A stretch of 33,415 nt of DNA from Candidatus Saccharimonadota bacterium (GTDB lineage Bacteria > Patescibacteriota > Saccharimonadia > Saccharimonadales > Saccharimonadaceae), in assembly GCA_017509895.1 (NCBI GenBank), contig JAFWOH010000018.1:1-33415 (forward strand), read 5' to 3'. Made by a program: the position numbers and the translations under genes. Below, piece by piece: positions 3,799 through 9,936 of the stretch. Position 1 is the stretch's first letter. Every line of letters begins with the position of its first letter. The notes below the pieces were generated by a model. It was given only the letters and a program-made list of their open reading frames with translations. It searched no databases and had not been told where the DNA came from.

Positions 3799-6700
3799 AT
3801 GGCTTGGATGGACAATTTTATCTCTGCTTCCGATTTCGACTCTATTAGACTTAGTGTCGCATCGGCAGAAGACATATTAAACTGGAGCTACGGCGAAGTC
3901 ACAAAGCCGGAAACCATCAACTACCGCACCCAGAAACCTGAGCGTGACGGTCTATTCTGCGAGCGTATTTTTGGCCCGACTAAAGATTTAAACCCGCATG
4001 ATTCAAAACTAAAAGGCGCCCGCTTCCGCGAGGCAGCCGTAGACAAAGAGGGAAATCTCGTTACCCGCTCTATCGTTCGTCGCGAGCGCATGGGTCATAT
4101 CACCCTTGCCGCCCCAGTCGCGCACATCTGGTTTATGCGCGGGACTCCTTCTCCGATTTCCTTGCTGCTTGGCCTTACGGTTAAGAACATCGAAAAAGTC
4201 GTCTACTTTGCTTCCTATCTCATCATTGAAAGTCATGATGATGAAATCGCTAAGGTCGTTTCCGACCTTGATGCCCAGACCGAGGCTTCTCGTCAGGCTA
4301 TTAAGATTCGCTATGAAAAAGCGAACAAAGAAAAAGATGCCAATCATGAAGCTCTCGCCGAAGAAGAGGCTAAAGAATTAGATGAGCTAAATAGCGACTA
4401 TGATAAAAGAAAAGGCATCTTAAGCAGCCTGAAAAAGGGTGCTGTCATCTCTGAAATCGACTATCGCAATCTCCCTGATGATTACGACGAATTAATCGAG
4501 GTCGAGATGGGTGCCACCGCTCTCAAGACTATGCTTGACCAAATTGATGTCGACGAGCTTATTGATAGTATTAAAGAAGAATTAGCCGAGGCTCGTGGCC
4601 AGCGCGAGAAAAAATTGTCCAAGCGCCTCAAGGTCATCGAGGGTATGCAAGCTGCCGGCATCAAGCCGTCTGATCTTGTCCTTACGGTCATCCCGGTCAT
4701 TCCTCCGGATCTCCGCCCGATGATTAGCCTCCCCGGCGGTCGTTTCGCGACCTCCGATCTTAACGACCTCTATCGTCGCGTAATTAATCGTAATAATCGT
4801 CTCAAGAAACTAATGGATCTTAACGCTCCAGAGGTCATCTGTAGAAACGAAAAGCGTATGCTTCAGGAGGCAGTTGACGCCTTAATTGATAATTCCGCCG
4901 CCCATGGCAATCGCACCGCGAATAGCACTAACGGCAGAAGAAAACTCAAATCTCTCTCGGACCTTCTAAAAGGTAAGCAGGGTCGCTTCCGCCAGAACCT
5001 TCTCGGTAAGCGTGTTGACTATTCTGGCCGCTCCGTCATTGTCGTCGGCCCAGAATTAAAGCTCAATGAATGTGGCTTGCCAAAACAGATGGCTCTAGAG
5101 CTCTTTAAACCTTTTGTCATCTCTTGGCTCATGGCTGGTGAGCACGCGGCCAACATCCGCTCCGCTACCCGCATGATTGAGGCTGGCGAAAATATCGTCT
5201 GGGATGCTCTTGATGATGTCATTCAGGGCAAATATGTCCTCCTAAACCGCGCTCCGTCGCTCCACCGTCTCTCTATTCAGGCCTTCCAGCCAAAGTTGAT
5301 TGATGGCAAGGCGATTCAGCTTCATCCACTCGTCGCTACCGGCTTTAACGCCGACTACGACGGCGACCAGATGGCGGTTCACCTTCCGCTCTCTGATGAT
5401 GCTCAAAAAGAGGCCCGCGAGCTCATGTCCGCCACTAAAAACCTCTTAAAGCCCGCTGATGGCGCCCCGGTTCTCTCCATTTATCAGGATGTCGTGCTCG
5501 GTATTTATTATCTCACTTACAATAAGCCCGGCACAGAGCAAGACACCGTAAAGCCTTTCTCTAGCGTCTATGAGGCCGAAATGGCCTACGATCAGGGTCT
5601 TATCCACCTCCAGACTCCGATTCGCGTCTTTGCGAAAAAGGAAATCAGAGAGACTACCCTCGGTCGCGTTATCTTTAATGAAATCTTGCCGGATGATTAT
5701 CCCTTTGATAATTCCGTCCAGACTTCAAAACAGCTCAAGAAAGTCATGGCCAATATCTATGACATGTATGGTGCTAAAGAGACCGTCCGCATTGCCGATG
5801 CCGTAAAGGACCTCGCCTTCGAATATGAAACCATCGCGAGTGTCTCCACCGCTAAAGATGATTACCCGACTTACCCAGAGATTCAGGAATTCATCGCCAA
5901 GGGTGATGCCGAGACCGCTCGGATTCAGGATCAATACGAAGAGGGTCTTCTCACCGAGGAGGAGCGTCATCGTCTCACCGTCTCCAATTGGCGCGACATC
6001 GATGATGAAATCTCTAAATTCCTTCAGGATAAATTGGCTGATATGGATACCGATATCGCCGTCATGGTCAACTCCGGCGCTCGTGGTTCCATCTCTAACA
6101 TTAAGCTCGCTTCCGCCGAAATTGGTATCATGGTCGATATTAACAACAACGAAATCGAACTCCCGGTCAAGAGCTCTTATAAAGAGGGTCTAAACACCCT
6201 TGAGTCCTTCATCGCTACTCGAGGCGCCCGCCAGGGTCAGGTTTCTACCGCTCTCCGTACTGCGGACTCCGGTTATCTCACCCGCCGTCTCGTTGATGTC
6301 GCTCAAGATGTCTTCACTACTGATGAAGAGTCCGATGATCCCGGCTTCACCGTCTATAAGAAGGAAGTCGAGGATGCCGGCGTCGAGTTTTCCGCATGGA
6401 TTTCTGGTCGCTACGCCGCCGAGGCCGTCCCGGGCTATGTTGATAAAGACGAAGTCATCACCAAGGAAATGGCCGATGCCATCTCCGCCGATGATAAAGT
6501 TGAATATGTCAAGATTTATTCCATCCTTACCACCAAATCGCTTGATGGTATCCCACAAAAGGCCTATGGTATCGATATGTCTACTCGTGAGCTCGTCGCT
6601 CCGTTCCAGCCGGTCGGTGTAATCGCCGCTCAGTCGCTTGGCGAGCCGGGTACTCAGCTCACCCTCGATACTAAACACGGCTCCGGTGTCGCCGGTTCTG

Positions 6701-7653
6701 GTGCTATCGCCCGCGGTCTTCCGCGTGTCGAGGAGCTTCTCGAGGCCCGTACCCCGAAGGGTCAGGCTTTCGTCGCTCCTGTTGCCGGTATAGTCAAAAC
6801 TTGGGAAGACGGGAATCATTACATCGTCGAAATCACCCCTGATAGTGGCGATCTTGAGCGCCTCGAATTAGATGGTAGGAAACCAAGGGTTAAAGATGGC
6901 CAAAATGTCAAAACTGGCGATGTCTTAACCAATAAGCCTAGAGGTAAAGAACCTCTTGTCGCTACCAAGGATGGCAATGTTCAGCTCGTAGAAGACGCCA
7001 TCATTCTCGTCTCCGCAGCCAGCGGTCCAGCCCGCATTGAAATCCCGGGCGAGGCTGAGCTTCTCGTTAAGAATGACGACCGTCTAGAGCGTGGCGACCG
7101 CCTCACCACCGGTTCCTTAAATCTTCAGGATCTCTTGAAGTACAAGGGTCGCGAGGCCACCGCCCGCTACATCATGAACGATGTTCTCTCGGTCTATGCC
7201 GCTCAGGGTCATGAGATTTCCGCAAAACACCTCGAAATTATCGTCCGCCAGATGTTCTCTCGCGTGATGATTGATAATCCAGGTGATTCCACCTTTGTCG
7301 CTGGCGACATCGTCTCCGAGGCCGCCGTCGCTCGTGAAAACCGCGAGCTAGAGCTCGAGGGTAAAGAGCCGGTTGAATACACCAATCTCCTCCTTGGTAT
7401 CACCAAGGTCTCGATTTGGTCAGATTCCTTCCTCTCCGCTGCCTCCTTCCAAGACACCACGCGCGTGCTTATCAATTCCGCCATCTCCGGCCGTATTGAC
7501 CACCTCCATGGTCTTAAGGAAAATGTCATCATCGGTCGCAAGATTCCGGTCGGTACCGGCAAGATTGCCCTCCCTGATGATGAGCCAGAAGAGCTACCAA
7601 CGCTAGATGAAGATTTACCGCTCGAGCCTTCTGAGGAAGATCTCATCTCCTAA
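3799..7653 (+). CDS. rpoC: RNA polymerase subunit beta-prime, zinc-ligand cysteines missing
   Basis: The catalytic beta-prime subunit, 1284 residues. The Mg-binding motif reads NADYDGD (N517 to D523), with Tyr where E. coli has Phe. The bridge/trigger region (SGARGS, GEPGTQLT) and C-terminal clamp are present. The odd part is zinc. In the N-terminal zinc ribbon, between GLFCERIFGP (51-60) and RRERMGHI, none of the four ligand cysteines remains. At the second site, aligned to E. coli C814, C888, C895 and C898, this protein has S845, T912, P919 and A922. The flanking sequence aligns well on both sides, so these are substitutions and not an alignment gap. Co-transcribed with rpoB and closed by the terminator at 7670-7695. 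Confidence 0.99.
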   Translation: MAWMDNFISASDFDSIRLSVASAEDILNWSYGEVTKPETINYRTQKPERDGLFCERIFGPTKDLNPHDSKLKGARFREAAVDKEGNLVTRSIVRRERMGHITLAAPVAHIWFMRGTPSPISLLLGLTVKNIEKVVYFASYLIIESHDDEIAKVVSDLDAQTEASRQAIKIRYEKANKEKDANHEALAEEEAKELDELNSDYDKRKGILSSLKKGAVISEIDYRNLPDDYDELIEVEMGATALKTMLDQIDVDELIDSIKEELAEARGQREKKLSKRLKVIEGMQAAGIKPSDLVLTVIPVIPPDLRPMISLPGGRFATSDLNDLYRRVINRNNRLKKLMDLNAPEVICRNEKRMLQEAVDALIDNSAAHGNRTANSTNGRRKLKSLSDLLKGKQGRFRQNLLGKRVDYSGRSVIVVGPELKLNECGLPKQMALELFKPFVISWLMAGEHAANIRSATRMIEAGENIVWDALDDVIQGKYVLLNRAPSLHRLSIQAFQPKLIDGKAIQLHPLVATGFNADYDGDQMAVHLPLSDDAQKEARELMSATKNLLKPADGAPVLSIYQDVVLGIYYLTYNKPGTEQDTVKPFSSVYEAEMAYDQGLIHLQTPIRVFAKKEIRETTLGRVIFNEILPDDYPFDNSVQTSKQLKKVMANIYDMYGAKETVRIADAVKDLAFEYETIASVSTAKDDYPTYPEIQEFIAKGDAETARIQDQYEEGLLTEEERHRLTVSNWRDIDDEISKFLQDKLADMDTDIAVMVNSGARGSISNIKLASAEIGIMVDINNNEIELPVKSSYKEGLNTLESFIATRGARQGQVSTALRTADSGYLTRRLVDVAQDVFTTDEESDDPGFTVYKKEVEDAGVEFSAWISGRYAAEAVPGYVDKDEVITKEMADAISADDKVEYVKIYSILTTKSLDGIPQKAYGIDMSTRELVAPFQPVGVIAAQSLGEPGTQLTLDTKHGSGVAGSGAIARGLPRVEELLEARTPKGQAFVAPVAGIVKTWEDGNHYIVEITPDSGDLERLELDGRKPRVKDGQNVKTGDVLTNKPRGKEPLVATKDGNVQLVEDAIILVSAASGPARIEIPGEAELLVKNDDRLERGDRLTTGSLNLQDLLKYKGREATARYIMNDVLSVYAAQGHEISAKHLEIIVRQMFSRVMIDNPGDSTFVAGDIVSEAAVARENRELELEGKEPVEYTNLLLGITKVSIWSDSFLSAASFQDTTRVLINSAISGRIDHLHGLKENVIIGRKIPVGTGKIALPDDEPEELPTLDEDLPLEPSEEDLIS

Positions 7654-7669
7654 CACAAACATAAAAATC

Positions 7670-7695
7670 GCGCCCCCTTTTGGGGGCGCTTTTTT
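7670..7695. terminator. Bidirectional intrinsic terminator after rpoC
   Basis: GCGCCCCC (7670-7677), a TTTT loop and GGGGGCGC (7682-7689) form a perfect 8-bp stem, followed by six Ts (7690-7695). Read from the other strand, the stem is followed by ATTTTT, so it can also stop the minus-strand gene whose stop codon (7694-7696) overlaps the T-run. Confidence 0.9.
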
Positions 7696-9355
7696 AGTCG
7701 AGCCAAACTGTGGCTCCATGTGCTAGCAATATCTCTTTGTAGGCCTCGCGGTCTAGGCGGTCGAGTTTTAAGGCTAAGATGTTCGGGTTTACCCCAAGGT
7801 CTAAAAACATTCTTAAATTCTCCTCGCTTCCAACGACCCTAAAACGGACATTGTCCACGATGAAATTCGCATCCACCCCGACCTTCAGGAGTAGTGCAAG
7901 ATGACGCTCAATCTGCCAAGAATTAAAATTCTTTGCTAACGCCTCAAAATCAAGTTCTGCCCCAAACTCGAATAGTTCTTCGAGTTGGCTCTCGATCTCA
8001 GAATCACTCAGCTTCTTTATTAAACGCTGAATTTTTATTGGAAATCCATATTTTTCTAAGACTTCCAGATTCCGCACAATCGCCCGCGGAGAGAACCTCT
8101 TATAGAGCAGATATTTTTCGCGCCGAGTCAAGCACTCGTCTTTCGCGATTTGCGTCAGATAGACATCCAGATGTAAATGGCTCTCTATCTTTTTCAGCAA
8201 TGATCGTACACTCATCCCGACATCTAAAAGTTCCGTAAAATATCTCGCCACGATGTGTTCATCAGCCTGCTGGACAATCCGCCTCAAGGCTTCTCCTCGA
8301 ACCATAATCCGGTCAAGATTTGGCAAAATCCAAACCGGCGTTAAAATCCGATGCGCCACTTTATTGATATCCAGACCATACGCTATTAAAAGATCCAGAT
8401 TATCGCTGATGTGCGGCTCGCTCATCTCCTGTGCCATTAAAAACGGGTCTGCTCCAAATATCAACAGAGCCTCTAAATCACAACTTGTACTAAGATTGCC
8501 ATTTAACCGCCTCAAATAATAATTTGGATCTAAGAGTAGTCCCTTTGTATTGAACCACTCAAAACCGAGCAACACTTCTTGCGGACCTAAGACTTTTAAC
8601 AGCTCCTCTGGCGTTGCCCCTGCTTCGTAGAATAAATCTAAATGATGCACAATCCGCTCCGCCCCTAGGGTCTCAAAAATCATCTGCAGATTATCGGTCG
8701 CCCAGAGCACCTGCTCTAAATACCTTTCGAGTATTCCCGGAGATGCTTTTTGAATCACTTCATAAATCTGCGCCTCCTCTAAGTACTCTTTCTCGGACTC
8801 TAAAAGATGTCCGGTTTTGTCTTTCCGAACAGATTCCATTAGCCACCGTAAATTCGGCAAAATCTCCGCAGGGGTACACTTCTGAAGTGCCGATTTCAGC
8901 ACTTCTCTTGATACTCCGAATATACGCAGCCACTTCAGGTTTTCCAGCTCAGACAGCCGTACTCTTGAAACCAGCTCGTCGGCCGAAGCTCCCGCCTCTA
9001 ATAAGGCACTCAAATTTGCCTCTACTGCCTCATCGCTCATATAGCTAGCCACCTCTGTCGGATTCGCTCCGAAGGATATCAGCTCCATTCCCATCCCCGC
9101 GATTATCTCGCTAGGCAAGTTCTGCATCGCCGTCTCTATCGGCAAACCTTCTTTCAGTTTCTTGGTTACCAATTCTCTTGTTTCCATCCGGTTGGTCTCC
9201 CTTCCCTTTATATGGTTTAGAATTATTCCTGCGTCCAGCAAACACTCCACCTCCTTCTTGTTAAAATACTCTAAAGATATTAGCTCCTCTTTTATTCTAT
9301 CACGCCTCTGTAAAAAAGCAAGAAAAAGGCGCCGCGGTATATTCCACAGCGCCAT
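7694..9355 (-). CDS. Hypothetical alpha-solenoid protein with about 16 unfamiliar 27-residue repeats
   Basis: Family not recognised. The 553 residues break into about 16 units of 26-28 residues with two predicted helices each. The loose consensus is S..I..NL..LL..GA.....L...L; examples are AVEANLSALLEAGASADEL, ERIVHHLDLFYEAGATPEEL and EIESQLEELFEFGAELDFEA. The GA turn after the first helix recalls ankyrin or mTERF-type solenoids, but the unit is shorter than an ankyrin repeat and lacks its TPLH signature. There is no signal peptide, membrane segment or catalytic motif, so a cytoplasmic binding scaffold is the best guess. The start is uncertain: ATG at 9355 has no clear ribosome site, whereas ATG at 9187 follows GGAAGGGAGA and gives 497 residues; the extra N-terminal part still resembles a repeat. 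It lies 12 bases after the 86-residue gene. Confidence 0.75.
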   Translation of the reverse strand: MALWNIPRRLFLAFLQRRDRIKEELISLEYFNKKEVECLLDAGIILNHIKGRETNRMETRELVTKKLKEGLPIETAMQNLPSEIIAGMGMELISFGANPTEVASYMSDEAVEANLSALLEAGASADELVSRVRLSELENLKWLRIFGVSREVLKSALQKCTPAEILPNLRWLMESVRKDKTGHLLESEKEYLEEAQIYEVIQKASPGILERYLEQVLWATDNLQMIFETLGAERIVHHLDLFYEAGATPEELLKVLGPQEVLLGFEWFNTKGLLLDPNYYLRRLNGNLSTSCDLEALLIFGADPFLMAQEMSEPHISDNLDLLIAYGLDINKVAHRILTPVWILPNLDRIMVRGEALRRIVQQADEHIVARYFTELLDVGMSVRSLLKKIESHLHLDVYLTQIAKDECLTRREKYLLYKRFSPRAIVRNLEVLEKYGFPIKIQRLIKKLSDSEIESQLEELFEFGAELDFEALAKNFNSWQIERHLALLLKVGVDANFIVDNVRFRVVGSEENLRMFLDLGVNPNILALKLDRLDREAYKEILLAHGATVWLD

Positions 9356-9367
9356 GAAGGGGGTATC

Positions 9368-9628
9368 TCAAACATTGAAGAATATTTGCTGCATTAAATC
9401 CTGCCTTCCCAAATAGGCCTGATTATTCCCCTGTAAAATGTAATTAATTCCGTCAACCGTTTTTGCCACCAAATTATCCTCTAACGAGAATATATCAACA
9501 ACTTCAGGTGTAATCACTTCTCCAGAAGTAGTCGGCAACACACGCCCATGCTCAGTTTTAACATAAAGTTTTCCTCTTAACCGAGACGGGTCAACCAACG
9601 GTTCCCAATTAATTAACATCTTTTGCAT
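9368..9628 (-). CDS. Small hypothetical protein (86 aa)
   Basis: I do not recognise this protein. It is soluble-looking and mixed alpha/beta in composition, with no signal peptide, transmembrane segment, cysteine or obvious motif. It begins at an ATG preceded by GGGAGAG at suitable distance, and the promoter at 9703-9731 lies upstream with a leader of about 68 nt holding a GCCTAG/CTAGGC hairpin (9659-9680). It ends with TGA 12 bases before the solenoid-protein ORF, so the two are probably one operon. A joint function is inference from position only. Confidence 0.65.
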   Translation of the reverse strand: MQKMLINWEPLVDPSRLRGKLYVKTEHGRVLPTTSGEVITPEVVDIFSLEDNLVAKTVDGINYILQGNNQAYLGRQDLMQQIFFNV

Positions 9629-9702
9629 ATTATCAACTCTCCCTTCTAAAAGAACCTTGCCTAGAACCCTTCTACTAGGCTTCTAAATATTGCAACTACC
9701 CT

Positions 9703-9731
9703 AGTATAACACAGAATATTATAAAAATCAA
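9703..9731 (-). promoter_or_regulatory. Minus-strand promoter for the 86-aa/solenoid operon
   Basis: Read on the minus strand: TTGATT (9731-9726), a 17-base spacer and TATACT (9708-9703), with TGT just before the -10. It is divergent to the rplC promoter, with about 40 bases between the two -35 elements. Together with 9773-9878 it accounts for most of the 308-base gap between 9629 and 9936, in which I see no gene. Confidence 0.6.
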
Positions 9732-9772
9732 GCATTTTATTTCCGAAAATCTTCTTTTTTACATTTTACCCC

Positions 9773-9801
9773 TTGCGCCAAAAATTACCCTGTGATATAA
9801 T
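9773..9801 (+). promoter_or_regulatory. Promoter for the rplC (S10-type) operon
   Basis: TTGCGC (9773-9778), a 17-base spacer and TATAAT (9796-9801), with the extended TGA immediately before the -10. Transcription should start near 9808, giving a leader of about 130 nt before rplC. Confidence 0.75.
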
Positions 9802-9808
9802 AATGACA

Positions 9809-9878
9809 CGTATTCTATTTTTGTAGAATATGACACTAGACGCAAGGGTAAGTCTACGGAAACTGCCCATAAGTCTAG
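9809..9878 (+). promoter_or_regulatory. Structured rplC leader with alternative pairings
   Basis: A 9-bp hairpin (9809-9832, loop TTTTTG) sits at the predicted 5' end of the mRNA. Next, CTAGAC (9836-9841) can pair with GTCTAG (9873-9878), enclosing GGGTA (9846-9850) paired with TGCCC (9864-9868). The sequence AAGTCTA occurs twice (9850-9856 and 9871-9877), so TAGAC could pair with either copy, giving two mutually exclusive folds. Ribosomal operons are commonly autoregulated through such leaders. Which protein, if any, binds here is unknown. Confidence 0.45.
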
Positions 9879-9936
9879 GGTTATTAATGCAAAATAGAAG
9901 AAAGAGTGTAATAATAATTTAAGGGAAAGGAATAAG

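Follow-up and report, generated by a model that had tools for sequence, protein, structure and literature searches.

The gene adjoining rpoC in the 33,415-nucleotide stretch of Saccharibacteria DNA analysed here (the window) is predicted to encode an acidic, soluble, cytosolic alpha-solenoid of approximately 16 short ankyrin-like units, most likely a protein-binding scaffold, a reading held with somewhat better than even confidence. The protein, designated P0001, belongs to a family that plausibly represents a so far unnamed variant of the ankyrin-like alpha-solenoids, for which a binding role is plausible. Saccharibacteria live on other bacteria and their interaction proteins are little known; the family offers fast-evolving candidate binding proteins.

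The open frame of P0001 extends over 553 codons (7694-9355, minus strand) and contains tandem units. Comparison of the protein with itself peaked when the two copies were shifted by 26 residues (z 4.1). Eleven units together scored 131 bits against a position-specific profile built from three other proteins, the sequence of P0001 not being included, whereas the best of 200 shuffles reached 16 bits; most other genes of the window scored 0 bits with this profile. A hidden Markov model made from the units of other proteins matched P0001 with E = 6.9e-10. The repeats of P0001 are not due to chance, and the tandem array that the initial annotation had described in this frame is borne out. Its figure of about 16 units also holds, the total being approximately 16-17 when degenerate units lying between the 11 scored ones are counted by eye, but its unit length of 27 residues is a mean: the unit measures 26 residues, or 28 where two residues are inserted past the GA turn. 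Hydrophobic and GA positions are fixed and positions 2, 6, 13, 20, 24 and 26 are variable, a pattern that suits a scaffold of stacked units whose surface can be adjusted. P0001 has a pI of 5.1 and a net charge of -21 (relatives' arrays, pI 4.3-5.3) and possesses no membrane-like stretch, with a hydrophobicity maximum of 1.13; these properties argue against both nucleic-acid binding and a membrane protein. The array and the sites surrounding it are as follows.

7670..7689, both strands: bidirectional terminator shared with rpoC, GCGCCCCC-TTTT-GGGGGCGC, with T-runs on either strand
7694..9112, minus strand: tandem 26-28-residue units, 11 scoring against the independent profile with several degenerate ones between; solenoid in the AF2 model
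7694..9241, minus strand: P0001 gene with the start corrected to TTG 9241 (515 aa); ribosome-binding block and TTG conserved in the related genome G240
9242..9355, minus strand: 5' part of the mechanically called ORF, candidate leader; ATG 9355 lies in a hairpin and the aligned site in G240 has none
9249..9256, minus strand: Shine-Dalgarno sequence AAGGAGGT, 7 nt upstream of TTG 9241
9294..9302, minus strand: extended -10-like site TGATAGAAT of the P0001 gene, a resemblance to the consensus only; TGnTAGAAT conserved in G240
9316-9321, minus strand: weak -35-like TTGCTT, 16 nt upstream of the -10-like site
9328..9353, minus strand: intrinsic-terminator-like hairpin of 10 pairs, 8 of them GC, followed by TTTTTC, directly past the gene for the 86-residue protein
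9368..9628, minus strand: P0002, an 86-residue protein without known family; homologue upstream of the repeat gene of G240

Translation of P0001 probably starts at TTG 9241, giving 515 amino acids. The ATG at 9355, taken initially as the start, falls within the terminator hairpin, and G240, the closest relative with a full-length gene, lacks an ATG at the corresponding position. Alignment of the G240 repeat protein to P0001 begins at residue 50 of the 553-residue frame, and residues 1-55 of that frame were modelled with low confidence by AF2. A ribosome-binding block, AAGAAGGAGGTGGAGTG, precedes the TTG both in the window (9241) and in G240 (aligned TTG), and in a further related genome, G296, AAGGAGGTG lies upstream of its TTG. 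The next-best start is the in-frame ATG at 9187, which would give 497 amino acids. Positions 9242..9355 are probably an untranslated leader, not protein.

The RNA fold of the hairpin at 9328..9353 gave a z of -3.5, and none of 200 shuffles was equally good. Its counterpart in G240 (3042-3016) likewise stands directly after the upstream gene, and TGnTAGAAT occurs between hairpin and start in both genomes. Since a terminator and a -10-like site precede TTG 9241 and both are conserved in G240, the P0001 gene probably has its own promoter. The P0002 gene has a promoter-like site of its own at 9731-9703. Co-transcription of P0001 and P0002, which the initial annotation had thought probable, is doubtful and not supported, because the terminator and the -10-like site separate the two genes and P0002 has a separate promoter-like site; some read-through may occur. 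The bidirectional terminator proposed to be common to the P0001 gene and rpoC is present.

P0002 had been called an orphan. It belongs to no known family, but it is not an orphan in the strict sense, as a homologue of approximately 150-165 residues is encoded directly upstream of the repeat gene in G240 (BLAST 9e-6; 0 of 2000 shuffles). A two-row profile of P0002 gave confident matches in 2 of 170 genus genomes, those being the window genome and G240. As far as its sequence and position go, P0002 appears to be a rare partner or fellow traveller of the repeat gene.

The gap between rpoC and rplC, which spans 7654-9936 in the window, measures approximately 200-400 bases in many genomes of the genus; in others it is filled by unrelated genes over 1-10 kb. 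Among the genus genomes searched, the repeat family was found in this gap only in the window genome, G240 and G296, which by rpoC are mutually the closest of the genomes searched; the G296 protein is 141 amino acids long. No member was present in the gap of the next relatives, G239 and G236. Conservation beside rpoC, as suggested previously, thus extends to the three closest genomes found and fails beyond them. Because the content of the gap varies, and the repeat gene is there in the three closest genomes and absent in G239 and G236, the gap reads as a variable cargo site, with no functional tie of the repeat gene to rpoC. The P0001 family diverges fast: P0001 and the G240 repeat protein are 36% identical, and the tail of rpoC, rplC and rplD are 86-89% identical between the same genomes.

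Other cargo was observed in the same gap. In G240 the repeat cassette is flanked by two genes of 178 and 186 amino acids without known identity (L046 886-1422 and 3834-4394). Elsewhere in the genus (L093-L110) the gap genes include a lipoprotein-like gene, a secreted-looking pair and lectin-like pieces. Identical 127-residue lectin-like frames (YPLSYVYSG...FWSTT) occur in the gap of two genomes, G216 (L098 685-1062) and G220 (L110 350-730), and are possibly remnants of a diversified gene.

Searches of P0001 against Pfam and NCBIfam returned no family at the curated cut-off, in agreement with the initial view of the repeat as unfamiliar, and no family in Pfam, NCBIfam or PHROG describes it. Weak Pfam matches to P0001 (CMD, 0.0089, and others) were below cut-off and were attributed to chance; low E-values that turned up here and there in the regular arrays of relatives fell on unrelated families and were regarded as repeat artefacts. 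HEAT, ARM, TPR, PPR, PUF and Sel1 models of Pfam gave no match to P0001 at E up to 10. PADLOC defence models yielded nothing of note (best E 0.51) and Rfam no match in the window. The mTERF proteins resemble P0001 in having a glycine turn and more than two short helices in each unit, but an mTERF identity was not supported: a search of the genome with PF02536 was empty at E up to 10, and P0001 is acidic. The structure matches listed include no mTERF chain, which taken alone carries no weight. TIGR02167 bears the name of a bacterial surface 26-residue repeat (PMC2996958). The PARCEL, DUF285 (PF03382) and TIGR02167 repeats are similar to that of P0001 in unit length; lipoproteins and surface proteins are the described carriers of DUF285. 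P0001 and its relatives had no HMM match to DUF285 or TIGR02167 in Pfam and NCBIfam.

The AF2 model of P0001 is a solenoid with a mean pLDDT of 78.7. Three short helices of six, six and approximately seven residues are predicted per unit, with a pLDDT of approximately 95 in regular units of a relative, and no strands were seen between units in the models of P0001 or the relative. Structure comparison gave best Z-scores of 8.0 for P0001 and 7.0 for the relative, a general alpha-solenoid similarity. Ankyrin entries scored Z 4.8-5.9, alike to PPR, HEAT and designed-repeat entries; these are weak matches, and PUF as well as PPR was among the weak matches. The top Foldseek match for P0001, a designed repeat (E 6.7e-6), superposed with an rmsd of 33.6 and was discarded as unusable.

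Profile searches point to ankyrins. Ankyrins made up 22 of 27 matches of the repeat profile (A4) in the PDB (best 3.9e-9) and nearly all of those of an alignment led by P0001 (A2; best 1.6e-15). Reversed and column-permuted control profiles found no ankyrin in the PDB, with best E-values of 0.035, 0.62 and 0.82, so that the similarity exceeds that of compositional controls. When hhalign was run against tandems of consensus sequences, P-values were 0.043 for ankyrin (a designed consensus, at low probability), 0.98 for TPR and 0.79 for PPR; the reversed control against ankyrin gave 0.92. In the structure alignments, identity was 18-22% to ankyrins, DARPins and the ankyrin-containing RNase L and 16% or less to others, except 9o9s_B (20%), a fusion construct that also ranks among the ankyrin matches by sequence. 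The P0001 unit and ankyrins (PF00023, PF12796, PF13637 and DARPins) have in common the LL..GAD(I/V)N segment with the helix after it and an alpha-solenoid architecture.

The unit differs from ankyrins in several respects, which lend some weight to an independent 26-residue alpha-solenoid, without ankyrin descent, whose LL..GAD turn happens to resemble that of ankyrins; such a protein would still be a protein-binding scaffold. Ankyrin repeats comprise 30-34 residues (2024 alpha-solenoid review, PMC11514114), whereas the P0001 unit has 26-28, lies beyond that range and lacks the TPLH motif in its consensus. Its three short helices leave no hairpin, and in sequence alignments approximately seven residues per unit are inserted on the ankyrin side, at the hairpin and TPLH. 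No ankyrin Pfam model matched P0001 at E up to 10, and relatives stayed below cut-off; a search of 99 genus genomes for classical ankyrins (PF12796) found none, and the structural matches are generic. An independent origin is nevertheless judged rather unlikely, since the ankyrin profile similarity is directional, vanishing in the reversed and permuted controls, and since structure-alignment identity is higher to ankyrins than to other folds. The earlier verdict that the repeat does not fit ankyrin is accordingly right as to the short unit and the missing TPLH, but is contradicted by the family profiles, which match ankyrins where the controls do not. The unit is probably an ankyrin-like repeat without the hairpin, by descent; the approximately seven gap residues per unit and the low hhalign probability against the ankyrin consensus leave room for convergence. 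If true, a hairpin-less ankyrin-like unit of 26 residues would be shorter than the range of PMC11514114 and a possible design scaffold.

Position beside rpoC and the ribosomal cluster, together with PUF and PPR among the weak structural matches, might suggest a nucleic-acid-binding solenoid of the mTERF, PPR, PUF or TALE type, acting perhaps on the neighbouring rpoC or ribosomal-protein transcripts. This is very improbable given the acidity of P0001 and of the relatives' arrays, the lack of an mTERF match in the genome, and a position common to only three close genomes. That restricted position would also suit an accessory gene in decay, the degenerate remainder of an array once regular, now drifting and of little function, as would units far more degenerate in P0001 than in its relatives, the low identity between close genomes and the reduction of the G296 protein to 141 amino acids. 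However, the frame of the window gene is intact across 515 codons, its GC and GC3 contents are ordinary for the window, and the ribosome-binding site, terminator and -10-like site have been kept between the window and G240 despite the divergence of the coding sequence; decay is considered improbable.

The preferred reading, a protein-binding scaffold of ankyrin-like units, draws on the wider family. The repeat profile matched 25 of 170 genus genomes; in a phylum-wide sample of 380 genomes it matched 3, two in the genus of the window and one outside it. Most relatives carry a long N-terminal domain, termed 'WCIA' (Gly-Thr-x-Trp-Cys-Ile/Val-Ala motif), followed by up to approximately 26 very regular units. 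These proteins (L066-L092) have the same unit as P0001 and occur in the same organisms, but possess an N-terminal domain of approximately 460 residues that P0001 is without, and most of their arrays are much more regular. The WCIA domain is missing in the 515-residue P0001 and in its counterparts of G240 and G296. When 84,980 species genomes were scanned for the WCIA family, by short conserved patterns that distant members may escape, Saccharibacteria or unclassified records alone were found; where given, the sources were chiefly ruminant or other animal gut. No close relatives of P0001 were found by pattern scan of genome and viral contigs, P0001 had no match in phages, and the family and repeat profiles had none in viral contigs. 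A match on an Enterococcus faecalis plasmid (26.5%, 3e-4) ran antisense to a long gene for a surface protein of 25-residue repeats; it was ascribed to chance. Among the genomes searched, only those of Saccharibacteria contained the repeat family, which is unnamed so far. The earlier suggestion of a lineage-specific binding scaffold fits the predicted alpha-solenoid, its acidity, the lack of a long hydrophobic stretch, the restricted distribution and the fast evolution.

Three WCIA proteins have a lectin-like domain at the C-terminal end in place of the repeats, a reading made by sequence motif, as no Pfam model matches. In Candidatus Nanosyncoccus alces (L083 3995-7813) one such protein lies beside a reverse transcriptase gene (6653-7813, minus strand; RVT_1, 1e-12). 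A 196-nt variable repeat (6022-6217), which constitutes the C-terminus of the WCIA protein, differs from its template (6497-6692) at 17 positions, 15 of them at template adenines. This bias marks the locus as a diversity-generating retroelement. The WCIA N-terminal domain thus bears one or the other of two changeable modules, a repeat array or a lectin-like domain, and their exchange behind a shared N-terminal domain opens the idea of binding to test. A modular recognition system of Saccharibacteria can tentatively be envisaged, in which one N-terminal domain is joined to a hairpin-less ankyrin-like array or to a lectin-like domain changed by the retroelement, P0001 being a free-standing array; in such a system the array would change as units are gained, lost or homogenised.

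For P0001 itself we infer protein binding from the changeable modules of the sister proteins and from the fold class. Its place in the cytosol and the kind of partner are inferred as well. In each predicted unit, two helices would form one broken outer helix and the third the inner helix, the ankyrin hairpin having been lost. The stack of units would grip a partner protein through its exposed variable positions; the host bacterium or a phage, for example, could supply that protein. As P0001 belongs to a fast-changing accessory gene set of Saccharibacteria, the partner probably differs between species.

Two further observations concern the WCIA proteins. Pfam holds no family for the WCIA domain, of which residues 266-405 of L071 weakly resemble GNAT/MYST acetyltransferases in structure (Z 4.8-5.7). 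Close to a WCIA protein that ends in a lectin-like domain, a KwaB-like gene of the Kiwa defence type (L090 7248-8219, minus strand) matched PF16162 above cut-off.
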